DNA of 37,868 nt from Verrucomicrobiota bacterium (GTDB taxonomy: Bacteria > Pseudomonadota > Gammaproteobacteria > Nevskiales > Nevskiaceae): positions 1-37,868 of the forward strand of contig CAJCJI010000352.1 of assembly GCA_903970595.1 (NCBI GenBank), in the 5' to 3' direction. Below, in pieces: positions 12,492 to 31,627 of the stretch (positions are counted from its first letter, which is position 1; each line of letters opens with the position of its first letter). The notes below the pieces were generated by a model. That model ran no database searches, was not told the DNA's origin, and worked only from the letters and a program-made list of their open reading frames with translations. The position numbers and the translations under genes are program-made.

Positions 12492-12505
12492 GTGCGATAG
12501 CGTAC
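12492..12505. promoter_or_regulatory. Single GTRCG-N4-CGYAC site upstream of EpsL
   Basis: GTGCG-ATAG-CGTAC is an exact match to the repeat found in the arrays at 10946 and 18618. It lies 98 bp upstream of the EpsL start in the divergent gap that also serves the membrane-protein gene at 12795. Confidence 0.55.
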
Positions 12506-12642
12506 GGAGCAGGGTGAAAGGTAATAGGGTTGAGCGGGGTGGGCGCTACCTGTTCGTTTCACAGCGGGTTCTGCTACTGCGCTACACTCCGGCCGCCCTG
12601 TTGCTCGGATCGGACGGTATGCGCTTTGAGATGGTCCGCTAA

Positions 12643-12794: not shown

Positions 12795-13292
12795 ATGACC
12801 CGGCACTACACAAGTCAAAGCGTCTTCGATACAGAGGCGACAATGATCCACGGCGCGAGCGGAATCGCGGCGCTGCCGCCGTCCGTGCCTGCATCTGGCG
12901 ATGTGGCGGCCCCCGGCGTCGATCATGACAAACGCCTCTCACCGTCGAGCCAGCCCTTCCTGATCTATGCCATCGGCTTGCTGATGGTGTCGATCCTGGC
13001 CTTGTGGCCTTTTGTGCAATCTCCACATGGGAGCCGCGGTTGGACTATTCCTGGGGTTCAAGCCGATGCCGGGTTGCTGGCGGCCCCCGAGGCGCAGACC
13101 CGGATGCGAATTGCTGGAATAGCGGATCTCATGCGGACTCCGGAAAGCCCAAGCGATGATCGAAGAATCGCAACACCAGGCCGCCGTCCGACAGCCGTTG
13201 TGCGGCCTGAGCCACAGGGCGGGATAATACCCGATCCTGAGCCAATTGCCGGGCAGCCCGCATTGGTGAGTCTTTTCATTGCGCATGATTGA
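12795..13292 (+). CDS. Hypothetical single-span membrane protein
   Basis: A 165-residue protein I do not recognise. One transmembrane helix is evident (PFLIYAIGLLMVSILALWPF, residues ~54-75), with a soluble Ser/Pro-rich N-terminal part and a Pro-rich C-terminal part containing a possible proline-rich linker (GIIPDPEPIAGQPA). The ATG at 12795 follows AGGGGAAAAGAAT, a good ribosome binding site, which is the main reason to believe the gene is real. Its end overlaps the 3' end of the convergent GH5 gene by 17 bp. A role in envelope assembly of the polysaccharide machinery is possible only from position. Confidence 0.5.
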   Translation: MTRHYTSQSVFDTEATMIHGASGIAALPPSVPASGDVAAPGVDHDKRLSPSSQPFLIYAIGLLMVSILALWPFVQSPHGSRGWTIPGVQADAGLLAAPEAQTRMRIAGIADLMRTPESPSDDRRIATPGRRPTAVVRPEPQGGIIPDPEPIAGQPALVSLFIAHD

Positions 13293-15222
13293 CCATCCAG
13301 CTCTGGAAGAACTGTCCGTAACCATCGGTCGGCGTGCCGTTCACACCCGTGATCAGCACGTTATCCGCATCTCCCCAGACGTCCCATGCCCAGCCGATGA
13401 CGCTCACGCCGTTCTGATCCGCGAACGCGGTCACGGTGGAAACCAGCGGCGAGCCCACCGTTCCGGACGAATCCTGATCTCCAGTCTCGGTGGCGATGAC
13501 CGGGATGCCCGCGGCCAGAATGTTCTGTACTTCGGTAAAAATCTGCGGCGAGTAATTCGGCTGAGCATAGGCGGCAGTGCCCCAGGTCGTCCCGTATGTG
13601 GGGTAAGCATGCCAGGTCGCCGCCATCTGGCTCTGCGGATCGGTCGGCCGATAACTCAGCCAGCTACTCAGGTCCTCCGAGTACTGCATTGCGCCGACCA
13701 GCACCACATTTTCCGCGCCCGTGGCGCGAACCGCGTTGATCATCTGCTGATAGCTGGCCACAGCCCAGGTTTGGGTGACGTTCTGCCAGTTGCTGCTGCC
13801 GCTGGTGGCGGGAAAGCCGGTGAAGGAGCCGCCGGTCCCCTGCATCATGTAGGACCAGGAGTTGCCGGTGAAATCGAAATCGAAGAACGGTTCGTTGTAC
13901 AGCTCGAACATGACCGCCGGATTGCCCTTGAACTGGGTGGCGATGGAGGTCCAGAACGCCAGCGAATGATCGGCGTCGGCCATTTGCGTCTGCAACATTG
14001 GGCACATCGTTCCGGGCGCCGCCCAGTGCAGGTCGAGAATCACGTAGAGGCCGGCGGCATTGGCTTCCGACACCTGCGTCTCAACCGACGACTTGTAGTT
14101 GTTGCCCGGATCGGGGTTGTGCACCACTCCGCTGCTGTCGGTGCAGCTGTAGTCCAGCCAGGATGCCTCGTTGAGCGGAAGGCGCACCACGTTGGCCTTC
14201 CAGCTGTGGATGGCTGCCCAATTCGGGCCGTTGGCCTGACCGCCCTGTGCTCCCGAGGGATCGGAAGGGTCCCAGCCTTGAATCGCCACGGACTCGAATC
14301 CGCTGAAGTTTACGCCGCGCAATTGCACGGCCTGCCCGGCGACATCGACGAATTGATTGCCTTGCACACGGATCGACATAGCGCCGGTCGTACCGCCGGA
14401 GCTGCTGCTGGACGAGTTTCCGCCGCTGGAGCTTCCGGTTTTGCCGCCGCTGCTCGAACTGCTGGATCCGCCGCCCGAGCTGCTACTGCTGCTGCCGGAG
14501 CTTGAGCTCGACGCCGGAGCTGTCGTTACAGTGAATGATATGGCGGAAAACACGGCATGCTGTGGATTGAGCAGGGCGAGCTGACCCGTCGCCCCATCGT
14601 TCGGTACGGTAATCTGCGCCTGTGTATCGCTGACCACCTTGATCCCGGCGTCATGCGCGTTGCCGATCCAGGCGGCGTCCGACCCGGTGAAGCCAGTGCC
14701 GGCTATGGTGACTACCGATCCCTTGGGTCCAGAAGCAGGTGAAAACCCGCTGATGCTCTGCTGCGGATAAGACGCGTTGCTGATCACCGTAAACGAAGAA
14801 GCGGTGAATGCCGCATGTGCGGAATTGAGAATCGCAACGGCCCCGCTGGTGGCATCGGTCGGAACCGTGACGGTCGCCCTGGTATCGCTGAGGACATGGA
14901 GGGCGGCGTTATGCGCATTGCCCACCCAGGCCTGCGTCGATCCGGTAAACCCCGAGCCGATCAGGGTCACAATCGCGCCACTAGCGCCGGTGCCCGGAGA
15001 GAACGAATTGATGAGCTGTTGAGGATTGGTGGCTGCAGCCTGTGCGCCGCCGCAGGATGTCAGCAGCAACAACATGCACAGGAAACCGCAAGTCAAGGCA
15101 CCGTGCCTGTTCTGCAGACATTTTACGGATTGGTGTCTGCCGCGTTCCGGCCAGGCGACCCTCATAGCGGCCAAGAAAGCGGCTAGCGTTCGCTCAGCCG
15201 ATGTAATGTAAATCTTGCACAT
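13276..15222 (-). CDS. Secreted GH5 family glycoside hydrolase lipoprotein with two IPT/TIG domains
   Basis: Probable endoglucanase-like lipoprotein. A hydrophobic stretch ends in the lipobox LLTSCGG. Two consecutive IPT/TIG domains follow, each starting INSFSPGTGASG or ISGFSPASGPKG and containing GSGFTGS or GTGFTGS plus W(V/I)GNAH. Then comes a Ser/Gly linker of about 45 residues, and a GH5 catalytic domain beginning at VQGNQFVDVAGQ. The acid/base Glu is in LYNEPFF (codon at 13891-13893) and the nucleophile Glu is in VIATETGDQ (codon near 13486). The start is unclear: ATG 15222 has AGGA upstream but leaves a long leader, whereas ATG 15165 gives a more normal signal peptide. In this locus it may trim or release the polymer, as hydrolases in other exopolysaccharide loci do. 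Confidence 0.85.
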   Translation of the reverse strand: MCKIYITSAERTLAAFLAAMRVAWPERGRHQSVKCLQNRHGALTCGFLCMLLLLTSCGGAQAAATNPQQLINSFSPGTGASGAIVTLIGSGFTGSTQAWVGNAHNAALHVLSDTRATVTVPTDATSGAVAILNSAHAAFTASSFTVISNASYPQQSISGFSPASGPKGSVVTIAGTGFTGSDAAWIGNAHDAGIKVVSDTQAQITVPNDGATGQLALLNPQHAVFSAISFTVTTAPASSSSSGSSSSSSGGGSSSSSSGGKTGSSSGGNSSSSSSGGTTGAMSIRVQGNQFVDVAGQAVQLRGVNFSGFESVAIQGWDPSDPSGAQGGQANGPNWAAIHSWKANVVRLPLNEASWLDYSCTDSSGVVHNPDPGNNYKSSVETQVSEANAAGLYVILDLHWAAPGTMCPMLQTQMADADHSLAFWTSIATQFKGNPAVMFELYNEPFFDFDFTGNSWSYMMQGTGGSFTGFPATSGSSNWQNVTQTWAVASYQQMINAVRATGAENVVLVGAMQYSEDLSSWLSYRPTDPQSQMAATWHAYPTYGTTWGTAAYAQPNYSPQIFTEVQNILAAGIPVIATETGDQDSSGTVGSPLVSTVTAFADQNGVSVIGWAWDVWGDADNVLITGVNGTPTDGYGQFFQSWMVNHAQ

Positions 15223-15297
15223 GGCAATGTAGTCCTGAGGTTTGAATAGGGCGAACCAAGCCATGCGCTGCATCTGTCGGCGAATGGTCTGGTGCAA

Positions 15298-15698
15298 GCA
15301 CCTTCTACTCTATGGGCCTTTATGTGCGGTGCCCCACGTTGAAAGGCGCCATTTGCGCGTTCGACGGGTTGTCGGTAAAAAGCAAGCGCCGCCTATCGGT
15401 CCTAAACTGCCGACCATCGGCAACAAACGCGGCTATGGGTAATTTTTGCCACGGAGCAAAACACCTAGCGACCTTCGCTTGCCAAGTGAGGGAAGGCGGT
15501 AACGCCATCGGAGGTAGCGGCAATGGTCCGGATTCGGCTATCGCTGCGCCGATGGAATTGATGCTGGCGGTCGACCATCAGAACCCGATCAAGCACGGAC
15601 GCCGGCTGCCGATCTTGCATTTCCAAATCGCTCTTCGAGCATGATCGCTATGTCCGCTATCACACATACCCGTACGCAGGATTGCGTCAATATTGCGC
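15298..15698. other. Intergenic gap between GH5 and oxidoreductase genes
   Basis: The gap of about 400 bp carries divergent promoters in principle. I see one near-match to the locus operator, GTGCG-GTGC-CCCAC at 15324-15337 (one mismatch), and a short palindrome GGTGC-AA-GCACC at 15291-15302. No gene or RNA is recognisable. Confidence 0.35.
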
Positions 15699-18617: not shown

Positions 18618-18665
18618 GTGCGTAGGCGCACTCAGTACGTAGTCGTACTGAGTGCGCACACGCAC
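18618..18665. promoter_or_regulatory. Triple operator array, 17-bp period, between ATP-grasp and WecG-type genes
   Basis: Three inverted repeats at exactly 17-bp spacing: GTGCG-TAGG-CGCAC (18618-18631), GTACG-TAGT-CGTAC (18635-18648) and GTGCG-CACA-CGCAC (18652-18665). The outer two are perfect GTGCG/CGCAC dyads and the middle one a perfect GTACG/CGTAC dyad, so the whole 48-bp block is nearly self-complementary about 18641. It sits in a divergent promoter region. Function as an operator is inferred from symmetry, period and recurrence. Confidence 0.7.
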
Positions 18666-18803
18666 AGAACCGCGAAGTCACGATGCTTAAGGTGAGTACC
18701 TCGCGGCCACGTCTGCAATCGCTAATGTCTTTGATGTGCGATGCCCGGCTCGGCCGCTAACCACAGCGCCATCTCATTGGAAGGCCGGCAGGCGGAGACG
18801 CGG

Positions 18804-19592
18804 ATGCTTACATCTACTGTTCAGATCGACGATTATGACGTGGCGGAATTTACGGATGTCGCAGCGGTTTTTGGACAGAACCGCTATAGCTTCGTGGTCA
18901 CCCCGAACGCGGATCATATGATACGGCTCGATGAGGATGTCTCGTTCCGCAAGATCTATGCAGACGCCGGGTTCGTACTCTTTGACAGCCGCTTTCTCTC
19001 GCATATTCTGCGCTTCACCCGCGGACTGCGCATCCCGGTGTGCACCGGGAGCGATCTTACGGCAAGACTGTTCTCCCAGGTGATTGCGCCCGACGATCCC
19101 ATCGTACTGATCGGGTGCAACGACAAGCAGGCCGCACAGCTTGTTGAAACCTACGGCCTGCAGCGGCTGGCCCATTTCAATCCGCCCATGGGGTTCATAA
19201 ATGATGCGTCCCAGGTGGAGGCGGTTCTTGATTTTGTAGAGGCCCATAGTCCCTTCCGTTTTTGTTTCCTCGCCGTCGGAGCCCCGCAGCAGGAGCTTCT
19301 GGCGCAGCAGCTGAAGGCACGTAATGTGGCGCGCGGCCTGGCATTGTGCGTTGGCGCCTCGATCAATTTTCTTACAGGGGCGGAACAGCGCGCGCCCAAG
19401 TGGATGCAAGGGATGGGTATGGAATGGATGTACCGGCTGGTCCAGGCTCCCGGTCTCATGGCCAAGCGCTACCTGATCCGCTGTCCGCGCATTTTCAAAC
19501 TGCTGCGGCATACGGCGATTGCGCTTCGCCCGGCTTTATATGAGCATGCCGTAAGTTTGCACGATGGCACTCAGCTTGAAACAGCATTGTAG
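18804..19592 (+). CDS. WecG/TagA/CpsF family glycosyltransferase (GumM-like)
   Basis: GT26 enzyme that adds a sugar to the lipid-linked repeat unit at the cytoplasmic face. Diagnostic stretches are VVTPNADHMIRLDEDVSFRK, GFVLFDSRFLSHILR, the PVCTGSDLTARLF segment, FCFLAVGAPQQELLA and LALCVGASINFLTGAEQRAP followed by WMQGMGMEWMYRLVQAP. The ATG at 18804 is chosen because GGAG lies nine bases upstream; an earlier ATG at 18741 would add 21 residues that look unrelated to the family. Length of about 262 residues is normal. It is followed 54 bp later by wzx. Confidence 0.92.
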   Translation: MLTSTVQIDDYDVAEFTDVAAVFGQNRYSFVVTPNADHMIRLDEDVSFRKIYADAGFVLFDSRFLSHILRFTRGLRIPVCTGSDLTARLFSQVIAPDDPIVLIGCNDKQAAQLVETYGLQRLAHFNPPMGFINDASQVEAVLDFVEAHSPFRFCFLAVGAPQQELLAQQLKARNVARGLALCVGASINFLTGAEQRAPKWMQGMGMEWMYRLVQAPGLMAKRYLIRCPRIFKLLRHTAIALRPALYEHAVSLHDGTQLETAL

Positions 19593-19628
19593 CCATTGCG
19601 GACCGGAGCGCTTATTCGATAATTCACT

Positions 19629-19642
19629 CTGCGATAGCGAAC
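19629..19642. promoter_or_regulatory. Near-match to the locus operator at the wzx start
   Basis: CTGCG-ATAG-CGAAC deviates from GTRCG-N4-CGYAC at two positions and ends four bases before the wzx ATG. Binding there would compete with ribosome loading or elongation rather than initiation. Weak evidence. Confidence 0.25.
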
Positions 19643-19646
19643 AGTC

Positions 19647-21188
19647 ATGGTCGAAATCCATACACCAACAGTGCATTCGCTTTCGCAAGATATCGTGCAC
19701 CGTGCCGGATCTGCCCCCGACTTGAAGACGCCAGCTCGATTGGCTCCAACGACCTGGGTCACGATTCAGACCGTATACGAGCAGGGACTCGGCGTCATCT
19801 TGTTCGCCGTGCAGGCGGCAGCCTTGGGGCCGCATGCCTTCGGTCTGTTTTCGCTGGTCATGGTGTTCATCGGATTCTGCGAATTCGTTCTTGGAATGGC
19901 GGCCTCCGAGGCGCTGATCTCGATTCCCGACATCGAGGATCTCCACTTCCACACCATGACAACGGCAAATGTGCTGGCGTCCATCGTGCTCGGAATCGCG
20001 GTGTTTGCAGGTGCGGACAGTATTGCGCGGGTTTTTGGGGAAGCTGAGCTGGCCCCCGTCCTGCGCTGGATGTCGGCGCTGCCGATTATTTCGGCTTTTT
20101 GCGCAGCGCCAATTGCGGCAAGCAAGCGCGAAATGCGCTTTCGCCCTATTGCCATGCGTTCCATTGCCGGATTGACCGTCGGAGGTGTCATCGGCTTGAC
20201 ACTGGCGCTGCTGGGTGCCGGTGTCTGGGCCCTGGTTGCACAAGCCATCGTACAACGCGGGGCCAGTGCAATAGTCCTTTGGGCGGCTGTCCCGCTGCGG
20301 CCGAGGTTCTCCTTGTCGGTGCCGCATTTCCGCGATTTGCGGCGATTCGCGGCTCCCGTAATGCTGTCCCGCACCATGAACTGGGCATCCGGGCAGCTAC
20401 CCCGCCTGGTGCTTGGCTTTTACCTGGGCGCCACTGAACTTGGGCTTTTCAGCCTGGCCGCGCGGCTTAGCGACATTCTGATCCAGGTGGCCTTGGAACC
20501 AAGGATTTCCGTCGCACGCGTGGATCTGCGCCGCTTTGCCAGCGACCCGGCGGGTCTCGAAAGCGCGATGCGCAAGCTGTTTCTCCAGATGAGCGTGTTC
20601 TGCTTTCCGCTGTGCATTGGAGGCGCGGCGATCGTGCCGACGCTATTCCACGCCTGGCTCGATCCTCACTGGTTCGGTGGGATCGTTGTGGCGCAGCTGC
20701 TGATGTTGATGGGGGTTCCGTGCATCACGCTGTATTGCGCAACCGCGGTTCTGCTGGCCATGAACCGGCAGAAGTGGGAAGCACTGATCTCCACGGCTCA
20801 GACCTCGTCCACCTTGCTGGCGGTCCTGTGCTTCGCACCGTTCGGCCTGGTTGCCGCATCGGCGGCGATAGCTCTGCGGCCGCTGATTCTTATGCCGTTG
20901 CCGGTAGTGTTGATGAATCGGCTCTGCAAGCTTCCGCTGGGCGTCATTCTTCGCACCCAGGCCCCCGCTCTGGCTGCGGCGGTGCTGATGGGAGCTGCCG
21001 TGTCGCTGCTGGGGCTGCATCTGGAAAATATTTTCAGCGATGCAAACGATTTGATCATCTTGATTGCGTTCGGCGCAATCGTCTATGTTTTATTGATTGG
21101 TCTTTTGCTGCCGGATTTCTGCATTGGACTGCTCAAGCAATTGAGCCGGCATCTGCAGGCCTCCGGTAAATCTCCCGCGCAGAGCTGA
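19647..21188 (+). CDS. Wzx-type lipid-linked oligosaccharide flippase
   Basis: Inner-membrane protein of the MOP/MATE superfamily that moves the undecaprenyl-linked repeat unit to the periplasm. The 513-residue sequence has about 12-14 hydrophobic helices, with the N-terminal WVTIQTVYEQGLGVILFAVQ and ALGPHAFGLFSLVMVF, the mid-protein FRDLRRFAAPVMLSRTMNWA and LPRLVLGFYLGATELGLFSL (typical of WzxC/GumJ-like proteins), and a second half with paired helices. The upstream gene is the WecG-type transferase on the same strand, and the NRPS gene ends 45 bp downstream on the other strand. No clear terminator separates the convergent ends. Confidence 0.9.
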   Translation: MVEIHTPTVHSLSQDIVHRAGSAPDLKTPARLAPTTWVTIQTVYEQGLGVILFAVQAAALGPHAFGLFSLVMVFIGFCEFVLGMAASEALISIPDIEDLHFHTMTTANVLASIVLGIAVFAGADSIARVFGEAELAPVLRWMSALPIISAFCAAPIAASKREMRFRPIAMRSIAGLTVGGVIGLTLALLGAGVWALVAQAIVQRGASAIVLWAAVPLRPRFSLSVPHFRDLRRFAAPVMLSRTMNWASGQLPRLVLGFYLGATELGLFSLAARLSDILIQVALEPRISVARVDLRRFASDPAGLESAMRKLFLQMSVFCFPLCIGGAAIVPTLFHAWLDPHWFGGIVVAQLLMLMGVPCITLYCATAVLLAMNRQKWEALISTAQTSSTLLAVLCFAPFGLVAASAAIALRPLILMPLPVVLMNRLCKLPLGVILRTQAPALAAAVLMGAAVSLLGLHLENIFSDANDLIILIAFGAIVYVLLIGLLLPDFCIGLLKQLSRHLQASGKSPAQS

Positions 21189-21233: not shown

Positions 21234-24200
21234 TTAACGGCCTGCTCTGGGCATTGGAGTATCGGCGCCGTGATCCAGAGCGGCCGATATCGTTGCCGCC
21301 ATCTGCGACACCCCGGGGTCCTGGAACATTATGAAGTGGTCACCGCCGACCACGGTGAGCTCAAGGCCGCCGACGGCATATTCACCCCATCCCATCTCGG
21401 CATCCAGGAAGCGCCCGCTAGGCTCATCTGCGCTCCGGAACAGCAAGATCCGTCCCGGGTATTGTTTCGGTTGATAGCGGCGTGCAGCTTCATCCAGATA
21501 GTTGAGCAACCACTGATCGTAGACCTCCGGAGAGGAAACCTTGCCCTGAATCAATCGGGTAGGCTCCGCAATCACGCTGTTACGAGTGAACAGCTTCAGC
21601 AGCCTCTTGACAATCATCCGATTGCCGATAAATGCACCTAAACTCTGCTGTCGCGAGTGTACCCTGGACCAGTCCAGCACGATCAATTTCCACCTGTAAG
21701 AATAATCCGAAAGCAAGCGTCTTGGCAGACTGAGTCTAGTCAAGTAACCCGGCGCATAGGTATCGACCAACATCAGTTGCGACACCTCCTGCCCTGAGGC
21801 GCAAAGCTGCTGCGCAATCTCGTAGGCAAGCGCCCCGGCAACGCACCAGCCCAGCAGCGCATAGGGCCCGTCGGTTTGTACGCGCCGGATCAACTGAACG
21901 TATCTCGTAGCGATCTCTTCAAAGCTCGAGGGCAAAGACTCCGCCGAAAGAGCGGGGTCGAACAATTGAAGTGTTGTGAACGGCCGATCAGGACCGAGAC
22001 GTTTGGACAAGGTGTAATAAATACCGGTATTGTTTATTGCGATCAGCGGCTGCTTGGCACCGCTGGCCTGCAAGCGCACCACCTGGCGAAAATCGTATTT
22101 TCGCGTGTCGCTGCCTTCGAGCAGGCCGGCTTGCTCCGCCAGGGTAGGCACCTGGAACAGGGTGGCGAGGCTGAAGTGCTGTCCGAACTCGGCGTCGATA
22201 CGGGCCAACAGCCTTATCGCGAGGAGGGAATGGCCTCCCATTTCAAAGAAGTTGGCGTGCTTGTCGACGACCGCCAAACCCAGAACCGCGTTCCAGAGCG
22301 CCGCCACGCGTTTCTCCACGGCGCTGAATGGCGCGAATTCCGGCTTTTTGTGCGAGGCGGTCGACACGGCAGCTGGCAGCGCGCGCCGGTCCGTCTTGCC
22401 GCTGGGCGTCTTGGGCATGGCATCGAGCAAAGTGATGAATGCCGGGCACATAAACGCCGGGAGCACTCCGGCCATGCTGCTCCGCAGGCTGCGGATCAAG
22501 GCTTCCGCATGTTGTGCATGATCGCGCCGCGGCACAACGTATGCGCTTAACGCCGCCTCACCATTGGCGCCCTCGGCCAGAATCACCACCGCTTCGGAGA
22601 CTTCCGGCTGCCGGATCAGCACGGCCTCGATCTCGGCCGGTTCGATGCGGAAACCGCGCAGCTTGATCTGGTGATCGATGCGGCCGAGAATCTGAACGTC
22701 GCCGTTGGAACACCAGCGCGCGAGGTCCCCTGTCAGATAGATGCGGCCTGCGGCAAATCGGTTGGAGGTGAACTTTTCTGCGGTGAGCTGCGGCTTGTTG
22801 TGGTAGCAGCGCGCTACACCGTCACCGCCGATATAGAGCAGACCAGGTACGCCGGCCGGTACCGGCTCGCCTTTGCCGTCGAGGATGTAAAACCGCGTAT
22901 TGGCGATCGGGCGACCCACCGTGATCGTTTCGTCGCCGCTGAGCATCTTGCCACAGGACGACCAAATCGTCGTTTCCGTTGGGCCATACATGTTCCACAA
23001 CTCGCCGGCGCCCTCGAGCAGGCGATTTGCCAGTTCACGCGGCAGGCTCTCGCCGCCAATCATCATCTTGAAGCCCGGTCTGGAGCGAAAGCCCGCTTCC
23101 AGCAGCAGGCGCCAGCTCGCAGGCGTGCCCTGCATCACGGTAACGCGGCGCTGTTCGATCAATTGCAGGAGTCTGGCGCCATCGACCACATCCGCTTCCG
23201 TTGCCAACACCAGCCTGGCGCCAACGACCAATGGCAAAAATAGTTCCAGCGCAGCGATGTCGAATGAGATCGTTGTCACCGCAAGCAGAACATCATGTTG
23301 CTCAAGGCCTGGACGAGCCGCCATCGCGTAAAGGAGATTGACCACCGATCGATGCGTGATTTCCACACCCTTGGGCAGCCCCGTGGACCCGGAGGTGTAG
23401 ATGACATAGGCCAGGTCGTCGGGCGTTGAAGGAGCGCCCGGGGCATCCACCTCTTCCGGGGCGGCACTCGTTGCGCCGCCCTCTAATTGAATAACCGGCA
23501 CCCCTTCCAAGGGCAGCGCGGACTCCGGAATGCGATCGGTAATCAGTGCCCCGAGGCCGGCATCCTTCAGGATGTGGCTCAGACGTTCTGCGGGATGTGC
23601 CGGATCGAGCGGTACGTAAGCCAAGCCGGCTTTGAGCACCGACACCAGGGCCACGACCAGTTCCATCGAGCGGTTCAACAATATGCCGACACAACGACCG
23701 CGCTCAAGTCCCTGGCGCCGCAGTCTTAGCGCGAGCTGGTTGGCGGCGAGGTCGAGCTCGCTGAAGGTCATTGTCCTGTCGCCGCAGGCCACGGCGATTG
23801 CATCGGGCGTGCGCGCCGCCTGGGCTTCCAGCAATTGCGACACTGTCAGGTGCCGCGGATACAGGGTATCGGTATGGTTCCAATCGAAAAGAGCGGTGCG
23901 GCGTTCCGCATCGTCAAGCATCGGCAGCGCTGAAATCCGGCAATCTTCATCGATCGTCGCGCCGTGCAATAAAAACCGGAAATGCTTGAGCAGTTGGGCG
24001 ATGGTGTTCGGCTGATATAAACCGGAGTCGTATTCGCAGGACAGGTGCCAGCCATCCCGGCGCTGCAAGACACTCAGGTTGAGATCGTACATCCCGCCTG
24101 CCGGCACCGATGGCATGCCTGTCGAACGCACACCGCCGTAGACCCCATCCTCGACGAAGGATCGTCGCACCGTATAAGTCACGGAAAGCAGGGGAGTTCT

Positions 24201-25352
24201 GCTGCGGTCCCGGTCCGGGCGCAGCATCTCGACGAGCTTCCCCGGCGGCATATCCGGATGCGCGAGCGCGTCTGTGACCCTATCGCGTACCCGGATCAAG
24301 AGTTCTGCAAACGATGGGTCTTCGGACAGGTCGCCTCGCAGCACCAGCATATTGGTGAACAAGCCGATAACATGCTCAAGCTCAATGCGATTGCGGCCGG
24401 CAACCGGTGTCCCGATGCAGATGTCCGTCTCGCCGGTGTACCGATGCAGCAAGACCAGGAAGGCGGCGAGGGTGGTCATGTACATAGTGCAGCCAAAGCG
24501 GCCGCCGAGGTCAGCGAGCCCGTCGATCAGGCTCCGATCCAGCAGCAAGGACTGGAAGTTTCGGTTGCTGGCCAGAACCGGCGGTGTGATCTTGTCGGGT
24601 GGAAAATCGAAATGTGTGGCCCCTCGCAAGGTATCGTTCCAAAACGCCTTGTCCGATCCTCGTGAAGTGCTGCCGATCGCCGTGGACTGCCACTCGCCGA
24701 AGTCGGCGTAGCCTGGCGGCAAGGCGGGCAAGTCCGGGAGGCGGCCTGACTGCAGTGCGTCATAGATCTCTCCCATTTCCCGTGCGAGTATGCCGATCGA
24801 CCAGCCGTCGCAGACCATCCGATGCGCCGTGAGCAACAGGACAAAGCTGTCTTCGGCCAGATGCAGGCAGGTCGCGCGGATGAAAGGGGGCCCCGACCGC
24901 AGATGGAAGGGAGCACGTGCCTCAAGTTGTGCAATGCGTTCGGCTTCGATGCCTGCCCGAAGCTCGAGCAATGGGGCGAGTTCCACCAGCCGGATGCGAA
25001 ACGGTACGTGCGGCTCAACAATCTGAACGGGCTCGCCTTCGATCTCCGTAAAGGATGTACGCAGAATCCCGTGCCGCGCGATGATCAGCTGAAGGGATTT
25101 CTCAAGATCGGGAACCGATAGTGCGCCTTCCAGCCGCCAGCGCACTGCCAGGCGCAGAGAAGGACTCAAGGGTTCCAACTGGTCCAGCACCCAGAGGCGC
25201 TGCTGCCCGGCGGAGCAGGGATAGTGCCGCCGGCTGTTCCGCTCCGCCGAGCTTACGCGGTCTGCTGCCGGAGCTTGTGCGGCATTGTCGGGAAATCCCA
25301 ATGATCCGCCGCGGGCCTGATTCCGATCGTTCTTCGTGAAGGCAGGCTGCAT
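21234..25352 (-). CDS. Single-module NRPS: condensation, adenylation, carrier, thioesterase
   Basis: A 1372-residue peptide synthetase. The C domain (~44-480) has the DFGEWQ and IGLFTNMLVLRGDL motifs, but the HHxxxDG motif reads HRMVCDG, with Arg178 in place of the catalytic second His. The A domain (~495-990) has YTSGSTGLPKG, YGPTETTIWSS, YLTGDLARW, GRIDHQIKLRGFRIEPAEIE and PSGKTDRRAL. By eye its specificity code is D-I-L-Q-M-G-M-I-W-K, similar to glycine-type codes I remember. The PCP has EMGGHSLL with Ser1042. The thioesterase (~1095-1350) has GWCVAG with Cys1170 where Ser is usual, then VDTYAPG and GGDHF for Asp and His. AAAGGG stands eight bases before the ATG. It runs against the flanking polysaccharide genes and shares a divergent promoter region with the OPX gene. 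Confidence 0.93.
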   Translation of the reverse strand: MQPAFTKNDRNQARGGSLGFPDNAAQAPAADRVSSAERNSRRHYPCSAGQQRLWVLDQLEPLSPSLRLAVRWRLEGALSVPDLEKSLQLIIARHGILRTSFTEIEGEPVQIVEPHVPFRIRLVELAPLLELRAGIEAERIAQLEARAPFHLRSGPPFIRATCLHLAEDSFVLLLTAHRMVCDGWSIGILAREMGEIYDALQSGRLPDLPALPPGYADFGEWQSTAIGSTSRGSDKAFWNDTLRGATHFDFPPDKITPPVLASNRNFQSLLLDRSLIDGLADLGGRFGCTMYMTTLAAFLVLLHRYTGETDICIGTPVAGRNRIELEHVIGLFTNMLVLRGDLSEDPSFAELLIRVRDRVTDALAHPDMPPGKLVEMLRPDRDRSRTPLLSVTYTVRRSFVEDGVYGGVRSTGMPSVPAGGMYDLNLSVLQRRDGWHLSCEYDSGLYQPNTIAQLLKHFRFLLHGATIDEDCRISALPMLDDAERRTALFDWNHTDTLYPRHLTVSQLLEAQAARTPDAIAVACGDRTMTFSELDLAANQLALRLRRQGLERGRCVGILLNRSMELVVALVSVLKAGLAYVPLDPAHPAERLSHILKDAGLGALITDRIPESALPLEGVPVIQLEGGATSAAPEEVDAPGAPSTPDDLAYVIYTSGSTGLPKGVEITHRSVVNLLYAMAARPGLEQHDVLLAVTTISFDIAALELFLPLVVGARLVLATEADVVDGARLLQLIEQRRVTVMQGTPASWRLLLEAGFRSRPGFKMMIGGESLPRELANRLLEGAGELWNMYGPTETTIWSSCGKMLSGDETITVGRPIANTRFYILDGKGEPVPAGVPGLLYIGGDGVARCYHNKPQLTAEKFTSNRFAAGRIYLTGDLARWCSNGDVQILGRIDHQIKLRGFRIEPAEIEAVLIRQPEVSEAVVILAEGANGEAALSAYVVPRRDHAQHAEALIRSLRSSMAGVLPAFMCPAFITLLDAMPKTPSGKTDRRALPAAVSTASHKKPEFAPFSAVEKRVAALWNAVLGLAVVDKHANFFEMGGHSLLAIRLLARIDAEFGQHFSLATLFQVPTLAEQAGLLEGSDTRKYDFRQVVRLQASGAKQPLIAINNTGIYYTLSKRLGPDRPFTTLQLFDPALSAESLPSSFEEIATRYVQLIRRVQTDGPYALLGWCVAGALAYEIAQQLCASGQEVSQLMLVDTYAPGYLTRLSLPRRLLSDYSYRWKLIVLDWSRVHSRQQSLGAFIGNRMIVKRLLKLFTRNSVIAEPTRLIQGKVSSPEVYDQWLLNYLDEAARRYQPKQYPGRILLFRSADEPSGRFLDAEMGWGEYAVGGLELTVVGGDHFIMFQDPGVSQMAATISAALDHGADTPMPRAGR

Positions 25353-25488
25353 TGACTTTACCCTTTGGAGCTAAGCCGATCGGGCATAATCGCCCAGCCA
25401 GCCACGCTGGCGCATGCTTGCGGCAATCGTGAGACCCATCGCGTTCATGACCGGTGATTCAGATTATGTAGCAGCGTCCGGGCGGTCT

Positions 25489-25502
25489 GTACGTCATCGT
25501 AC
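25489..25502. promoter_or_regulatory. Single GTRCG-N4-CGYAC site between NRPS and OPX genes
   Basis: GTACG-TCAT-CGTAC is a perfect dyad, extended by one base on each side (TGTACG / CGTACA). It lies 137 bp upstream of the NRPS start and 133 bp upstream of the OPX start, almost exactly in the middle of the divergent gap. It matches the middle unit of the array at 18635. Confidence 0.55.
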
Positions 25503-25509
25503 ATAACCG

Positions 25510-25547
25510 GCATCCGCAAGGCGCATCCTCGTTCACGATGCGGATGC
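25510..25547 (+). repeat. Inverted repeat in the OPX leader region
   Basis: GCATCCGC (25510-25517) and GCGGATGC (25540-25547) are perfect 8-bp arms with 22 bases between, 88 bp before the OPX start. It could form a stem in the leader transcript. No T-run follows, so a terminator is unlikely. Confidence 0.4.
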
Positions 25548-25634
25548 GACCGGAATGTGTGCGATATCGAACAGACGCGTGGTCCGACCACCTTCGACAA
25601 TCTATTCCACAAGTGAATCTGGGATGAAGCAACC

Positions 25635-26600
25635 GTGCCCAATGGCGCCTATCACGCGATTACCTCCGGCACGACCCAGGCAGCACGGTCGCGAAAATCG
25701 CAGCTCCGGTTCTTCGAATGGGCCGCTTGCCGGGCTCTGTTGTTTGCGGCGGCACTTGGCGCCGGCTGCTTCGAGCCCGTGGCCGACGCTCAAAGCGCCA
25801 GCCTGAAACTCGATGATGCAATCGCCAGCGCCAGCCAAATCGCCAGTGCTGCGCCGCCAAAAGCTGAGCCGGGAGCGGCGCTGACACTGGGACCGGGGGA
25901 TGTGGTGGCAGTTCAGGTTTACGGCCGTCCGGAACTGAGTTCCACCATCTACATCGGCGACGACGGCACCATCCGGATGCCGCTTGCAGGAGCCGTCAAC
26001 GTCTCCGGGCTGTCTCCGGCGCAGGCCTCGCAGCGAGTTGCCGAGGCTCTCAAGGAAGGCAATTTTCTGGTCAATCCCCAGGTTTCGATCATTCTTTCCC
26101 AGTTCCGCAGCCAGCAGGTCTCGGTGCTTGGCGACGTGCGTGCGCCCGCCCGCTTTCCAATCGAATCGCGCACCACGGTTCTGGATCTGCTCGCCCTGGC
26201 GGGCGGGGTCAATGAAAGCGGAGGGAATGTTGTTTACCTGATCCGTCCGGACAACAGCGGACACGTCACCCGCTATCCAATTGATTTGAAGGGGCTGAGC
26301 GACAGCAAGAGCGCAATTCCCACGCTGACGCTGCGCGGAGGCGACACGGTGTTCGTGCCGCGCGCGGAGCAATTCTATATTTACGGTGAAGTGACCACGC
26401 CCAACATGTATCGCATCGAACCCGGCATGACCGTGCTGCAGGCCATGGCCAGAGGCGGGGGAGTGACTCCGCGCGGGAGCGAAAATCGCGTGGAAATCAA
26501 GCGACGCCTCGCGAACGATCGCTATGTGACGATCACCCCTCAATTGACGGATCCGGTAATGCCGAACGATGTGATTCGCGTCAAACAGCGAATCTTCTGA
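25635..26600 (+). CDS. Polysaccharide export outer-membrane protein (OPX, Wza/GumB/EpsE type)
   Basis: Secreted protein that forms the periplasmic and outer-membrane channel for the polymer. An N-terminal hydrophobic segment (ALLFAAALGAGCFEPVADAQ) is a signal peptide; GAGC could be a poor lipobox. The Poly_export domain spans ~85-165 (LGPGDVVAVQVYGRPELSS, YIGDDGTIRMPLAGAVNVSG). Two SLBB-type domains follow (VSVLGDVRAPARFPIESRTT, FYIYGEVTTPNMYRIEPGMT). The 321-residue length fits short OPX proteins. The GTG start at 25635 is the only good in-frame choice. It begins the plus-strand operon that continues through the Wzz, kinase, Wzy and transferase genes; its stop overlaps the next ATG by one base. 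Confidence 0.93.
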   Translation: MPNGAYHAITSGTTQAARSRKSQLRFFEWAACRALLFAAALGAGCFEPVADAQSASLKLDDAIASASQIASAAPPKAEPGAALTLGPGDVVAVQVYGRPELSSTIYIGDDGTIRMPLAGAVNVSGLSPAQASQRVAEALKEGNFLVNPQVSIILSQFRSQQVSVLGDVRAPARFPIESRTTVLDLLALAGGVNESGGNVVYLIRPDNSGHVTRYPIDLKGLSDSKSAIPTLTLRGGDTVFVPRAEQFYIYGEVTTPNMYRIEPGMTVLQAMARGGGVTPRGSENRVEIKRRLANDRYVTITPQLTDPVMPNDVIRVKQRIF

Positions 26601-28039
26601 TGCCCAGATCGAATTTGCCCGCGCTGCCCGCAACGATGTCCCTGCCCATCACGGCATCGATCATTCCACAGCATTTTGTTCATCCCGGCCTGTCGCTGAG
26701 CCAGATCATGGCGATTTTGTGGGCCCATAGGAAGGCGACGCTCTACATCGCCGCGGCCATCACGGTATTTGTAGCCTGCGTCGTCTGGGTAATGCCTAAA
26801 ACGTTCTCGGCGACGGCCACCCTGATGGTCGACTATGAAGTCAATGATCCGCTCGGCGGCAAGGAATTTCCGATTGGGCTATTGGGCACCTATATGTCCA
26901 CGCAGATCGAACTGATGCGCAGCGATGAGGTGCTGATGCCGGTCGTCGACCAGCTCAAGCTCACCGATAACAAAAACTATACCAAGGGCTTCAGCGACGA
27001 GCCCGGCCGCTTGCGCCAATGGGTAGCAAAGGCGATCAGCAAGAAGCTGCTGATCGAGCAGGGGCAATATGGCAGCCAGCTCATCTACATCAGCTTTTCC
27101 GCCAACAATCCAGCGGATGCCGCGCTGATCGCCAACACCGTGGCGGAAATCTATATGCAGCAGCAGTATCAACGCCTGACGGGTCCGGCCAGCGAGCGTT
27201 CCAAGCGTTACCTGGCGCAACTCGAAGAGCTCAAGCAGAGCGTCAGCCGTGCCCAGGATCAAGTCACCGGCTTTCGCCAGCGAACCGGCCTGATCGACGT
27301 GGATGCAAAATCCGATACCGACATGGAGCGCCTGTCGTCGCTGCAGCAACAACTGGTCGAGGCGCAGAGCGTCCGCCGCAATGCGGAGGCGCGGGCGTCC
27401 CAGAACCAGTCCGTTGGACAGCAGGTGCTTTCGTCCAGCCTGATCCAGACGCTGAAGGCGCAACTTGCCCTTGAGACGGCGAACCTGGCGCAGCTGAAGG
27501 CCACGCTGGGTTCGGCGCACCCTCAAATTATCGAACTTCGCTCCCAGATCGAAGCAACGCGTGCTTCGCTTGCGGCGGAGGTCGGCAGCTATTCCAGCGG
27601 TGCGTCGTCCGACCTCAATTCGACCCGGCAGATGGAAAGCGAATTACAGCAGGCGGTCGACGATCAACGCGCCAAGGTTCTGAACGTCCAAAAAATCAGG
27701 GACGAGGGCGCCAGGTATCAGCTCGATCTTCAGTCCGCGCAGTCTGTATACAAACAGGCCCTGGATGGCTATGACCAGTTCGTCGTAGCCTCCAGCGGCC
27801 ACTATACCAATACAAGCTTCGTCAGCCGCGCGGATCCGCCGCTGAGAGCCTCCAAGCCGAAAGTGCTGGTCGACCTGTTGGCTGGAGCCTTGGCCGGGAT
27901 GATGCTGGGGCTGCTCGGGCCTCTCGGCTACGACCTTCTGAATCGGCGCGTGCGCTGCCGGGACGACGTGGAGCGCGACCACAATGTGCCGGTTCTGGTG
28001 GAATTCGGCATTTCACCGATGCAGCGGACGACATCATGA
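26600..28039 (+). CDS. Chain-length determinant / polysaccharide co-polymerase (Wzz/GumC/EpsF type)
   Basis: Inner-membrane protein that sets polymer length and links Wzy to the exporter. Of 479 residues, the first transmembrane helix is at ~46-66 (ATLYIAAAITVFVACVVWVM), then the Wzz domain (FSATATLMVDYEVNDPLGG), a long predicted coiled coil at ~200-390 and the second helix near 420-440 (VDLLAGALAGMMLGLLGPLG), preceded by the Pro-containing ADPPLRASKPK typical of these proteins. It overlaps the OPX stop by one base and the next gene by four, so translation is coupled. It lacks a fused kinase domain; that function is in the next gene. Confidence 0.93.
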   Translation: MPRSNLPALPATMSLPITASIIPQHFVHPGLSLSQIMAILWAHRKATLYIAAAITVFVACVVWVMPKTFSATATLMVDYEVNDPLGGKEFPIGLLGTYMSTQIELMRSDEVLMPVVDQLKLTDNKNYTKGFSDEPGRLRQWVAKAISKKLLIEQGQYGSQLIYISFSANNPADAALIANTVAEIYMQQQYQRLTGPASERSKRYLAQLEELKQSVSRAQDQVTGFRQRTGLIDVDAKSDTDMERLSSLQQQLVEAQSVRRNAEARASQNQSVGQQVLSSSLIQTLKAQLALETANLAQLKATLGSAHPQIIELRSQIEATRASLAAEVGSYSSGASSDLNSTRQMESELQQAVDDQRAKVLNVQKIRDEGARYQLDLQSAQSVYKQALDGYDQFVVASSGHYTNTSFVSRADPPLRASKPKVLVDLLAGALAGMMLGLLGPLGYDLLNRRVRCRDDVERDHNVPVLVEFGISPMQRTTS

Positions 28040-28899
28040 ATGCGCAGCTGGACAGCGCCCTTCTGAAGGACAGCGGCGCCATATTGAAGGCCGCGCTGAT
28101 TCGACGCTGCGCCCTATCCGACGAGGCAGTGACACGGATCACCGATGCCGAACACAGCCTGGGCGTGAGCTTCAGCGATGCGGCCTTGTTCGTCGGGCTG
28201 GCGACGCAGGAGGACGTGGCTGCGGTCCGCGGAGTCGAACACCGACTGGTGGTGATACAACGCAAGCGCGTCAGGCCGGACAATTGCCTGACCTTGATCC
28301 GCGATCCGTTCGATGCGCACAGCGAAACCGTGCGGTCCTTGCGCACCGAGCTGCTGTTGCGGCGCGATGCTCCCGGACAGGCGGATGTGATGGTGGTGAT
28401 GAGCCCCTGCGCCGGCGAGGGGCGCTCGCATCTCGCCGCAGAACTTGCCATTGCGTTCTCCCAGCTTGGTCAACAGACCCTACTGGTCGATGCCGATCTG
28501 CGTCATCCCTATCAGCACGTCTTGTTTGGTTCGGAGAATAATGAAGGCTTGTCCGATGCCATCGCCCGCGACGTCGCGCCTTACTTCCATCCAGTGGAGG
28601 GCTTGCCGCATCTGTCGCTGCTTACATCGGGACCCATACCTTCGAATCCGCTCGAACTTCTCTGCGACAGCCGCTTTGAAAAAATGATCGAGGAATGGCG
28701 CCATTCCTTCGCCTACGTGATCTTCGATACCGCTCCGGTTGAGAAATACTCGGACGCACTGGCCGTGGCCACGCTGGTCGGCAGAGTGCTTGCTTTGTGC
28801 CGTGCCCAGCATACGCCTTACGCGGAGACGCGGAGTATGTTGCGCCGCCTCGCCGCTACGCAGTCGCGCATCCTCGGTGCCGTGGTCAATCACTTCTAA
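28036..28899 (+). CDS. BY-kinase-like ATPase of chain-length control (EpsG type)
   Basis: Cytoplasmic partner of the Wzz protein. The 287-residue sequence has a small N-terminal helical domain resembling MshEN-like modules (ALSDEAVTRITDAEHSLGVS, ALFVGLATQEDVAAVRG). The P-loop ATPase domain follows: Walker A reads SPCAGEGRSHLAAELA, with Arg where most BY-kinases have Lys; Walker A' is LLVDADLRHP; the Walker B-like segment is YVIFDTAPVEKYSDALA. The protein ends VVNHF without the usual C-terminal tyrosine cluster. I recall GEGRS as common in EpsG-type proteins, so this may be normal for the subfamily. Whether it autophosphorylates is open. ATGA overlap with the Wzz gene. Confidence 0.88.
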   Translation: MNAQLDSALLKDSGAILKAALIRRCALSDEAVTRITDAEHSLGVSFSDAALFVGLATQEDVAAVRGVEHRLVVIQRKRVRPDNCLTLIRDPFDAHSETVRSLRTELLLRRDAPGQADVMVVMSPCAGEGRSHLAAELAIAFSQLGQQTLLVDADLRHPYQHVLFGSENNEGLSDAIARDVAPYFHPVEGLPHLSLLTSGPIPSNPLELLCDSRFEKMIEEWRHSFAYVIFDTAPVEKYSDALAVATLVGRVLALCRAQHTPYAETRSMLRRLAATQSRILGAVVNHF

Positions 28900-28995
28900 A
28901 AAAATGTTCAAGCGCAATACAGCCGCCCCTGTCCTGTGTCCGGCCGCTCATCGACGGACGGTGCGATCCATGTATGCACCAGGGACAGGAGCCTG

Positions 28996-30498
28996 ATGCC
29001 CCCCCACTCCGGTTCCCAGATGCGAACGCAAGAACAGCCTTTCATGCAGGGCGCCGCCCAGGCGTTTTCGCGCGTATCCGACCAGACCCACGGCATCTGC
29101 GCATTGCCGGCGGGATGGCTTGACGATAGCCGCCAATCCTTTGTGTTGACCGGAATGGCCTGGGTATTGATCGTATTGATGATCGTGCCTGACAACTTCG
29201 ACTACAGCGGCCTGTCTGGAGCGGCCGGACCAGTTTCCGGAGGTGCCGTGAGTCGCCTGCTGTGGAGCCTGCTGTTTGGCGCAGGGCTCTTTGTGACGGC
29301 ATGGAGGGGCAAGCTCGCTTATCTGGTCTTGCGGGGCTTGAACCCGTTCCTGCTGGCATTCGCCGCGCTGGCATTTGCAAGTTGTCTCTGGTCAATCGAG
29401 CCGGCCGTGACGGCGAGGCGATTGATCCGTGTGTTTACGATCATCCTGGATTCACTGGCACTGGTGCTGATGGGCTGGAGGCCCTTGCGCTTTCAAGGTG
29501 TCCTGCGTCCCATCTTGACCGCGATGCTGGTAGGCTCCCTCCTTTTCGGGCTGGCATTCCCGCATCTTGCCATTCATCAGGAATCCTCCGCGGAACTCGT
29601 CGGGGCCTGGCGCGGACTCACCGCGCACAAGAACAGCCTGGGCGCTCTTTCCTGCGTCACCCTGATTTTGTGGGTCCACGCCTGGCTAACCAGGCAAACC
29701 AGGTTGACTCCAGCGTTGTTCGGCACGACGATTGCCGTCACCTGCCTGGTGCTGTCCCGCAGTTCCACCTCGCTGGTCGCTTCCGCGTTTTCGATTGCTT
29801 TCCTGTTCATCTTCCTGCGCATGCCTTCGGGGCTGCGGCGCCAGGCGCCCTACATCGTAGGCTTGTTTGTAAGCCTGCTGTTGATTTATTCGCTTGCGAT
29901 CCTGCGCTTGCTTCCTGGGCTGGACCTCATTCTTGCTCCGATCGTCGCGGTGACGGGCAAGGATTCGAGCTTTACCGGCCGCAGCGACATCTGGAAGATC
30001 GTGATCGATCACATCCATCTGCACCGGCTCCTCGGTACCGGGTATGGCGCTTATTGGACCGGCCCGGTCGAAGGAACGCCTTCCTTCGACTTTATCCGCC
30101 TGATGCGCTTCTACCCGGGATCCGCCCATAACGGCTACCTCGAAATCATGAACGACCTGGGGTTCGCGGGCCTTATCTGCCTGATTGGGTACATGGTCGC
30201 CTACGTCAGGCAGGCATTGAGCCTGTTCGCGGTCGATCGCAACCAGGGGACCTTGTATCTGTGCCTGTTCGTGCAACAGGGCATCACCAACTTGTCGGAA
30301 TCACATTGGCTGAGCGTGATGAGCGTTGCCTTCGTGATCATGACCATGGCGACAAGCGGCATCGCGCGCGAGATTCTCGAGGTCCGCCTGCGCCACTATT
30401 TTGGCATGGCTCAGCAAGCCGTCGATGTCCAGGCGTCACATTTCGAACCTCCGGGCAATGCGGCAACACCGGGGAGCGATCATGGCAGCCCGGCCTGA
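28996..30498 (+). CDS. O-antigen ligase/polymerase family protein (Wzy, GumE-like)
   Basis: Inner-membrane polymerase that links repeat units on the periplasmic side. About 500 residues with some 11-12 hydrophobic helices. Typical motifs are WRGLTAHKNSLGALSC in the first half, LSRSSTSLVASAFSIAFLF, FTGRSDIWKIVIDHI, LLGTGYGAYWTG and, after the large periplasmic loop, YPGSAHNGYLEIMNDLGFAG. The start ATG 28996 has AGGAG four bases upstream and is preferred over a start at 28936. The gap of 96 bp after the kinase gene is the longest within this operon. Its end overlaps the acyltransferase start by 17 bp. Confidence 0.9.
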   Translation: MPPHSGSQMRTQEQPFMQGAAQAFSRVSDQTHGICALPAGWLDDSRQSFVLTGMAWVLIVLMIVPDNFDYSGLSGAAGPVSGGAVSRLLWSLLFGAGLFVTAWRGKLAYLVLRGLNPFLLAFAALAFASCLWSIEPAVTARRLIRVFTIILDSLALVLMGWRPLRFQGVLRPILTAMLVGSLLFGLAFPHLAIHQESSAELVGAWRGLTAHKNSLGALSCVTLILWVHAWLTRQTRLTPALFGTTIAVTCLVLSRSSTSLVASAFSIAFLFIFLRMPSGLRRQAPYIVGLFVSLLLIYSLAILRLLPGLDLILAPIVAVTGKDSSFTGRSDIWKIVIDHIHLHRLLGTGYGAYWTGPVEGTPSFDFIRLMRFYPGSAHNGYLEIMNDLGFAGLICLIGYMVAYVRQALSLFAVDRNQGTLYLCLFVQQGITNLSESHWLSVMSVAFVIMTMATSGIAREILEVRLRHYFGMAQQAVDVQASHFEPPGNAATPGSDHGSPA

Positions 30499-31627
30499 GG
30501 TCGACGCGGGAGCAGGCGCTGCGATGCTGCCGTCGAGCCGCTCGATTCCGTCATTGGACGGCGTGCGCGGAATCGCCGTATGCCTGGTGTTCTTCGCACA
30601 CAGCGGGCTGGAGAATCTGCTACCTGGCGGCCTGGGCGTCACCATTTTTTTTGTGTTGAGCGGATATCTCATCACGACCTTGATGGTGGGTGAATACCGC
30701 CTCACCGGCTCGATCAACTACGCGGCCTTCTATCTTCGCCGGCTGATGCGCCTGATGCCGCCTTTGCTGATTGTTACCGCCCTTGCTGGCGCACTATCGG
30801 CCTTGTCCCTGATCGAGGGAGGGTTCAGCGGCAAAGGGGTGCTCTCGGTTCTGTTCTATTTCAGTAACTATTACGCGATCAACCACGATTTTCAGGGCTT
30901 GCCGGCCGGCATGGGCGTGACCTGGTCGCTGGCGGTTGAAGAACATTACTACCTGTTCTATCCACCGCTGGCGTATCTGCTGCTCCGCATCGGCAAGATC
31001 AGGCTATCGGCAATGGTGCTGTCGATATTGTGCATGGGGGTTCTGGCCTGGCGTTGCTGGCTCGCGCTGCATGGCGCCTCGGAGGCCTACCTGGGCATGG
31101 CGACCGATACGCGAATCGACGCCATTCTGGTCGGAAGCCTCATGGGCTTCTCCTGCAATCCCTGGCTGGCGCCAGATCGGTTCCACAATGGGCGCCGGCA
31201 ATGGGCGGTGGCCGCAGTATGTTGCCTGACGCTGCTTGCCACTCTGCTCTACCGAGCGGAGTTTTTTCGGCTTACCGTGCGCTATACCTTGCAAAGCCTG
31301 GCCATTGCCCCGCTTATTTATCTTTCGATTGCCAGGTCGGGTCACGGCGCGTTTCGCTGGCTCAATTCGAGGCCCATGGTCTACCTCGGCACGGTCTCCT
31401 ACACCATCTACCTGTCGCACCAAGTGATTCTCTATTTTGTAGAGCGACAGTGGCCGCAGTTGGGTTGGGCGGCCACCACCGTCGCAACTGCGTGCATAGC
31501 GCTGGCAGTGGCTGAATCCATGCGCCGCTGGGTCGAGCAGCCTTGCGTCAAATTGCGCAGGCGCCTGCATCCGGCGCCGCCCGGGAACGGGGCCAAGGGC
31601 TACGACTTGCCAGTGGGGGCATTGTGA
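30482..31627 (+). CDS. Acyltransferase 3 family O-acetyltransferase (OafA/GumF-like)
   Basis: Membrane enzyme that probably acetylates a sugar of the repeat unit or polymer. About 381 residues with ten hydrophobic helices. The family signature is near the start (SIPSLDGVRGIAVCLVFFAHSG with the catalytic-type His), followed by GVTIFFVLSGYLITTL, the FYLRRLMRLMPPLL arginine pair and VTWSLAVEEHYYLFYPPL. ATG 30482 is preceded by GGGGAG and lies inside the Wzy 3' end. The next gene starts at GTG within the stop (GTGA). No extra SGNH domain is fused. The acyl donor and acceptor cannot be told from sequence. Confidence 0.9.
   Translation: MAARPEVDAGAGAAMLPSSRSIPSLDGVRGIAVCLVFFAHSGLENLLPGGLGVTIFFVLSGYLITTLMVGEYRLTGSINYAAFYLRRLMRLMPPLLIVTALAGALSALSLIEGGFSGKGVLSVLFYFSNYYAINHDFQGLPAGMGVTWSLAVEEHYYLFYPPLAYLLLRIGKIRLSAMVLSILCMGVLAWRCWLALHGASEAYLGMATDTRIDAILVGSLMGFSCNPWLAPDRFHNGRRQWAVAAVCCLTLLATLLYRAEFFRLTVRYTLQSLAIAPLIYLSIARSGHGAFRWLNSRPMVYLGTVSYTIYLSHQVILYFVERQWPQLGWAATTVATACIALAVAESMRRWVEQPCVKLRRRLHPAPPGNGAKGYDLPVGAL

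Follow-up and report, generated by a model that had tools for sequence, protein, structure and literature searches.

The window analysed in this study, the whole 37,868-nucleotide stretch of contig CAJCJI010000352.1 (assembly GCA_903970595.1), carries a one-module nonribosomal peptide synthetase (NRPS) gene inside an exopolysaccharide (EPS) locus. The NRPS contains condensation (C), adenylation (A), peptidyl carrier protein (PCP) and thioesterase (TE) domains. With its Wzx flippase, Wzy-type polymerase, OPX export protein, chain-length protein with kinase and initiating transferase, the locus qualifies as Wzx/Wzy-dependent. Its central features are as follows.

9289..10830, minus strand: initiating sugar-phosphate transferase (Bac_transf; Pfam)
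19647..21188, plus strand: Wzx flippase
21234..25352, minus strand: NRPS, C-A-PCP-TE, one unbroken open reading frame of 1372 amino acids (Pfam and motif reading)
25353..25634, no strand: divergent NRPS/OPX intergenic region, 282 bp, with two exact palindromic sites
25635..26600, plus strand: OPX export protein (EpsE type)
26600..28039, plus strand: chain-length determinant (EpsF/Wzz)
28036..28899, plus strand: tyrosine autokinase (EpsG)
28936..30498, plus strand: Wzy-type polymerase (Wzy_C)
31624..33063, plus strand: HAD-domain protein with a long hydrophobic C-terminal part (P0002), which serves as the EPS-locus marker

The coordinates and the Pfam matches of its neighbours confirmed that the NRPS gene is flanked by the flippase and OPX genes, as the initial annotation had placed it, and that it is divergent from the latter. 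Pfam assigned Condensation to residues 41-485 (E 3e-84), AMP-binding to 508-851 with its C-terminal part at 907-986, PP-binding to 1015-1077 and Thioesterase to 1111-1357. Every domain scored over the Pfam cut-off, and all four stand in the canonical order of a termination module. The module had been called complete, which is true of its domains but not of its active sites, because the HHxxxDG motif of the C domain reads HRMVCDG and the catalytic second His is replaced by Arg. The A core motifs YTSGSTG and YGPTE and the PCP serine motif GGHSLL (GGHS) are present, and the TE nucleophile is a Cys in the motif GWCVAG. This Cys and the TE Asp and His did not vary in an alignment of nine orthologues. 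An AlphaFold2 model of the TE (pLDDT 77) matched the TE domains of EntF, NocB and AB3403 with Z 24-26 and a root-mean-square deviation (rmsd) of 2.4-2.8 over 202-208 residues.

The substrate code of the A domain, whose positions were taken from an alignment anchored on the core motifs, is DILQMGMIWK. It agrees at 8 of 10 positions with DILQLGLIWK, the code of the glycine A domain of kalimantacin Bat2 (PMC4831472 Table 1), and the orthologues in genomes G009 and G014 carry the Bat2 code exactly. Glycine is hence the predicted substrate, in line with the earlier expectation of glycine or another small residue.

Conserved co-occurrence of the NRPS with Wzx/Wzy genes had been put forward as a check on which the idea could have failed, and it held. 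We surveyed 58 genomes of the family, scoring the EPS locus by marker P0002. The marker was found in 11 genomes and the NRPS in 10, all of them among the 11, that is, in 10/11 genomes with the EPS locus and 0/47 without (Fisher p 2e-10; the genomes are partly fragmented and the co-occurrence tests ignore relatedness). The remaining genome, G035, has the EPS locus without the NRPS. Full-length relatives of the NRPS were 41-55% identical and stood divergent to OPX in G017, G024, G014, G009, G067, G075 and G069. A divergent arrangement of NRPS and EPS genes was also seen in G162 and G490. In G016 and G007 the NRPS and the EPS locus are distant or on separate contigs, yet they co-occur. A sample of 369 genomes of the class added one genome with the marker, G162 of another family, where the NRPS adjoins the locus together with a phosphopantetheinyl transferase (PPTase) gene. 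In the genus of G162, g102 (9 genomes), marker and NRPS occurred in the same four genomes, so that the NRPS was present in 4/4 genomes with the marker and 0/5 without. Judged by gene content in two families, the presence of the NRPS at the EPS locus is thus no accident. A plasmid collection searched with the EPS marker gave no match, and a wider contig scan with the NRPS as query returned relatives of just 35-38% identity, in Myxococcus, a Desulfobacterales metagenome-assembled genome and Streptomyces.

The NRPS is accompanied by one of two gene sets. In six genomes (G017, G067, G075, G069, G016 and G007) it ends a three-protein polyketide synthase (PKS)/NRPS line, composed of A-PCP, then ketosynthase (KS)-acyltransferase (AT)-acyl carrier protein (ACP)-aminotransferase-C-A-PCP, then C-A-PCP-TE. 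The A-PCP protein has the code DAFWLGGTFK, which looks Val-like, and the hybrid protein has a Gly code; hybrid domains were scanned in G017 only, the other hybrids being 54-56% identical to it over nearly the whole length. In G017, G067, G075 and G069 the line genes lie within the EPS locus or adjoin it, the G069 hybrid alone being on another contig, and in G016 and G007 the three genes stand in one row apart from the EPS genes. The statement that a lone module cannot make a peptide is right for the present genome (G000) as assembled, but related loci use the same gene as the last module of a longer line.

Two side observations concern these A domains. The NRPS of three line genomes (loci L053, L056 and L059) has the code DILFMGVIYK, which departs from the glycine code at positions 278, 299, 322 and 331. 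In an A-domain tree, the window and G017 sequences clustered with the glycine A domains from the PKS-NRPS hybrids and not with those of the other solo loci, which suggests recombination between modules.

In the other eight genomes, G000, G024, G009, G014, G162, G490, G492 and G496, no line was seen beside the EPS locus, and the NRPS is solo. A genome-wide search for C domains found one each in G162 and G009, one plus a weak fragment in G024, and only the truncated one in G014. Absence of the line in G490, G492 and G496 was judged by a strict search cut-off plus the gene neighbourhoods, and that in G000 from an assembly 87% complete. All eight solo genomes encode, side by side, a FemX-fold protein and a cupin/JmjC-like protein. 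The former occurred in 8/8 non-line and 0/6 line genomes and is also absent from G035; G016 and G007 have distant cupins (E about 1e-13). The line and the FemX-fold/cupin pair are mutually exclusive across the genomes compared by sequence. In G000 the pair lies on contig C25 (locus L079), near Crp and DUF2383 genes resembling the right end of the window.

L079:1539-2861: putative FemX-fold aminoacyltransferase (AlphaFold2 model, pLDDT 72.8)
L079:2858-3742: cupin/JmjC-like protein (metal-triad alignment)

The FemX-fold model, a tandem GNAT, matched Staphylococcus aureus FemX with Z 16.7 (rmsd 5.9, 306 residues aligned) and FemA with Z 16.4, followed by two streptothrisamine-binding or related aminoacyltransferases at Z about 14, and by other tandem GNATs at about 13. 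Its sequence did not match the FemAB family, and PF13480 (Acetyltransf_6) was the only match at E<=0.001. The cupin/JmjC-like protein has the HxD...H metal triad of JmjC/cupin Fe(II)/2OG oxygenases, its HAD and PHR being unchanged across six proteins, and its family score is under the Pfam cut-off. Searching PDB sequences with profiles of the FemX-like and cupin proteins gave nothing meaningful.

Contigs C197 and C272 (loci L036 and L035) of G000 were considered as a hidden line of this genome and rejected. They encode A-PCP-KS-AT-ACP followed by C-A-PCP-hydrolase, the AT domain being split across two contig ends. As their proteins are only about 34-43% identical to the line proteins, lack an aminotransferase and have their own releasing domain, they belong to a different small PKS/NRPS cluster.

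The state of the C domain follows this division. The four line genomes with an EPS-linked NRPS keep HHxxxDG intact, and 8/8 non-line genomes have lost it, through changes of at least four kinds (HR..DG, HQ..DR, NA..DR, deletion of the N-lobe in G014, HH..DS/DA). Between G009 and G014, the nonsynonymous divergence (dN) was 0.39 for C and only 0.13, 0.16 and 0.15 for A, PCP and TE, while the line pair G067/G069 gave 0.17 for C, 0.19 for A, 0.22 for PCP and 0.19 for TE. Among g102 pairs, the dN of C was 1.3 to 2.1 times that of A. The initial annotation had allowed for transfer through the C or TE domain; with the catalytic motif lost in every solo-type locus, the C part of this idea is not supported and the TE stays in the reading we favour.

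A C domain that is still active with a donor in trans, its motif changes being tolerated, would instead make an N-acyl- or peptidyl-glycine, attached or released. Such activity could explain why the g102 proteins retain both His (HHIVSDS/A, HHIVADA) and an alignable C domain, why the window C domain keeps the Asp and Gly and outpaces A only moderately (dN 0.48 vs 0.32 to G017), and why the HQ-variant C domain of G016 and G007 is conserved at 85-86% identity. However, G000, G024 and G009 lack the second His, which is the accepted catalytic base, the whole N-lobe is gone in G014, and neither G162 nor G009 has a second C domain, G024 having the weak fragment only. We consider this explanation improbable.

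The reverse case was seen in G016 and G007, where the A core motifs are lost and dN reached 0.52 for A vs 0.10 for C and 0.16 for TE. Their terminal modules (G016:C2:183612-187592 and G007:C6:224191-228150) are 46% identical in A vs 85% in C, with PCP and TE intact. This A-domain decay, the C-domain decay of the solo type and the absence of the other two line proteins there could also be taken to mean that the NRPS gene is a leftover from the three-protein line, itself decaying and beside the EPS genes only by chance. Against such a relic, which we regard as very improbable, the reading frames are open, dN/dS for G009/G014 was 0.24-0.29 in A, PCP and TE (purifying selection), the non-line proteins retain the A core motifs as well as GGHS and GWC, G162 has a PPTase gene beside the NRPS, and the FemX/cupin pair appears along with the solo state. 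PCP and TE were retained in all NRPS proteins compared. Thus, as read from these alignments, the carrier and a putatively releasing or transferring Cys-TE are what selection keeps everywhere; in the solo type predicted glycine activation is also kept and peptide-bond formation dropped. The proteins form a natural series in which single domains are lost (C in eight genomes, A in two) around a constant PCP and TE, and such a series shows what the protein is kept for.

Regulation of the NRPS also appears tied to the EPS genes. Two exact copies of the palindrome TGTNCGNNNNCGNACA lie at 25488-25503 and 25558-25573 in the intergenic region common to NRPS and OPX, supporting the co-regulation implied by the earlier proposal of an operator shared with the export operon. 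The window holds 12 copies with at most one mismatch vs 1.41 expected (the largest count in 100 shuffles was 4), and 12/12 are intergenic, though only about 14% of the window is. Besides the NRPS/OPX junction, the sites precede the initiating transferase, the EpsL-like gene, the FAD gene, WecG and Wzx.

10945..10994: three tandem operator-like palindromes with a 17 bp period, upstream of the initiating sugar transferase
12491..12506 and 12642-12657: operator-like sites
15651..15666: operator-like site
18651..18666: operator-like site before WecG
19628..19643: operator-like site before Wzx
35320..36045, plus strand: Crp/Fnr-family regulator, candidate operator reader
36759..37469, minus strand: Crp/Fnr-family regulator, second

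In the first operator test, TGTTCGANNTCGAACA, learned from three loci, matched strongly in the window (Markov p <0.001) and nominally in G017, G024 and G014, and gave no match in G009 and G162. The degenerate TGTNCGNNNNCGNACA was read afterwards and partly from these same data, which makes the window enrichment post hoc in part; intergenic copies in three further g102 genomes were noticed after the motif was set. The NRPS/EPS junction has exact copies of TGTNCGNNNNCGNACA in G067, G075, G069, G162, G490, G492 and G496 too, those of G067 and G075 falling just within the called start of the NRPS gene. Sites of this type are found upstream of the cupin gene in the g102 genomes, and operator-like sites occur at 719 and 4764 of L079 in G000. 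Neither the unlinked loci of G016 and G007 nor a second EPS cluster of G000 (contig C259) has intergenic TGTNCGNNNNCGNACA sites. A sigma-70 promoter scan of the NRPS/OPX intergenic region found none, and no Crp-type TGTGA-N6-TCACA site was present in the intergenic regions. One of the two Crp-type regulators flanking the locus is a candidate for the operator reader.

We propose that the NRPS is the glycine-activating, glycine-carrying module of the EPS pathway and attaches glycine to the polymer instead of making a peptide, a proposal to which we give about an even chance; an aminoacylated polysaccharide is, by inference, the best reading of the locus. The A domain would form glycyl-AMP and load glycine onto the PCP, and the C domain would no longer form peptide bonds. 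We infer that glycine would leave by the Cys-TE and/or the FemX-fold aminoacyltransferase and be attached, probably through an amide bond, to a sugar in the lipid-linked repeat while this is still on the cytoplasmic side, ahead of flipping by Wzx. The cupin/JmjC-like protein may hydroxylate the substituent. In the related species with the line, the same gene would end a Val / malonyl-beta-amino / Gly line and so place a short peptide at the same position.

FemX-type enzymes add glycine to lipid-linked precursors, and it is this chemistry, together with the FemX-type fold of the partner, that leads us to propose glycine transfer to the EPS precursor. A more specific version, which we offer only tentatively, holds that the NRPS without C function is a glycine-charged carrier for the FemX-fold transferase acting on the lipid-linked EPS repeat, and is evolutionarily interchangeable with a PKS/NRPS line that adds a short beta-amino-acid peptide to the same polymer. 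In its predicted fold the partner resembles FemX/FemABX, of the S. aureus pentaglycine bridge, and the streptothricin-group enzymes Sba18/Sbb17, the last being the matches at Z about 14; the analogy we propose is the addition of glycine to an acceptor that is lipid-linked or an amino sugar. Known members use aminoacyl-tRNA, whereas a glycine-charged NRPS is the source proposed here.

Several points weigh against this proposal. The co-occurrence statistics are uncorrected for relatedness; the two His kept in the g102 motif make residual C activity possible; and in G000, at 87% completeness, the FemX-fold/cupin pair is on a different contig from the NRPS. Moreover, Gly-tRNA or acyl-CoA could be the substrate of the partner, which might then have nothing to do chemically with the NRPS; its likeness to FemX is structural, with an rmsd of about 6 Å, and Pfam gives Acetyltransf_6 alone.

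The closest known protein suggests another outcome. AB3403/A1S_0115 of Acinetobacter baumannii (PDB 4ZXH, 4ZXI) resembles the window NRPS over its full length, as a stand-alone C-A-PCP-TE module for glycine (predicted in our case from the code) with a Cys TE, its GxCxG motif being GWCFGG where the window has GWCVAG. Its operon, which includes an acyl-ACP ligase, an acyl-CoA dehydrogenase and an ACP, is tied to biofilm and motility, and the cluster is required for a lipopeptide-like compound (PMC5376624). By this precedent, the window NRPS might make a small diffusible glycine-containing metabolite (a signal, surfactant or protectant), co-regulated with EPS for biofilm life and unattached to the polymer, and the line of G016 and G007 indeed does not adjoin EPS genes. 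However, AB3403 lies outside a Wzx/Wzy locus and has no described FemX-fold or cupin partner, and the window NRPS differs from it by the loss of the C active site. The window genes scanned include neither an acyl-ACP ligase nor a free ACP, 8/8 non-line loci have a broken C domain, the part needed to acylate glycine, and the strict linkage to one EPS locus in two families together with the FemX-fold partner favours polymer modification. A free metabolite therefore seems unlikely to us, though it is the strongest competitor of glycine attachment.

Other known systems share parts of this arrangement. Wzx/Wzy EPS loci with EpsE/EpsF/EpsG share with the window their genes for export, flippase, polymerase, initiating transferase and glycosyltransferases. 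McyE/MycA-type hybrid synthases have the order KS-AT-ACP-aminotransferase-C-A-PCP, which is also that of the line hybrid; unlike them, the line hybrid is fed by a Val-like A-PCP, is followed by C-A-PCP-TE and is encoded within or beside the EPS operon in several genomes. The thiopeptidoglycan of Sphaerotilus/Leptothrix is a polysaccharide bearing a short glycine-containing peptide, and may be analogous to the proposed EPS; this sheath polymer is the subject of titles cited in PMC11087309. No description of an NRPS or hybrid PKS-NRPS in a Wzx/Wzy locus was found in the open literature, most subscription journals being outside the search. The source of glycine and other amino acids on bacterial glycans is often unexplained, for example in the Yersinia lipopolysaccharide core, which carries glycine at an unknown position (PMC8533242). 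If our proposal is true, nonribosomal peptide enzymes supply polymer decorations and not just free natural products, and one EPS backbone might be tailored with glycine or a short peptide through a swap of gene sets.

The remaining genes of the locus are listed below.

11090..12394, minus strand: EpsL-like protein (label used here), conserved in EPS loci, no Pfam match
13276..15297, minus strand: glycoside hydrolase family 5 (Pfam), with relatives in other loci
18741..19592, plus strand: WecG/TagA/CpsF glycosyltransferase
30524..31627, plus strand: acyltransferase family 3
33060..33980, plus strand: glycosyltransferase family 2
33980..35161, plus strand: glycosyltransferase family 2, second

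The ATP-grasp and FAD genes of the window, which had been suggested as partners of the NRPS, had no homologue in any other locus examined and are thus not a conserved part of the system. The second EPS cluster of G000 (C259, locus L071, 14 kb) is related to that of the window, with a marker 47% identical, and is without an NRPS. At 4815-7646 of the window, a tRNA-Ser (cga) precedes a recombinase gene, which seems to span two reading frames (5125-6240, 6339-6734), and DUF2924/DUF3489 genes; this region looks like the remnant of an integrated element adjoining the EPS locus.

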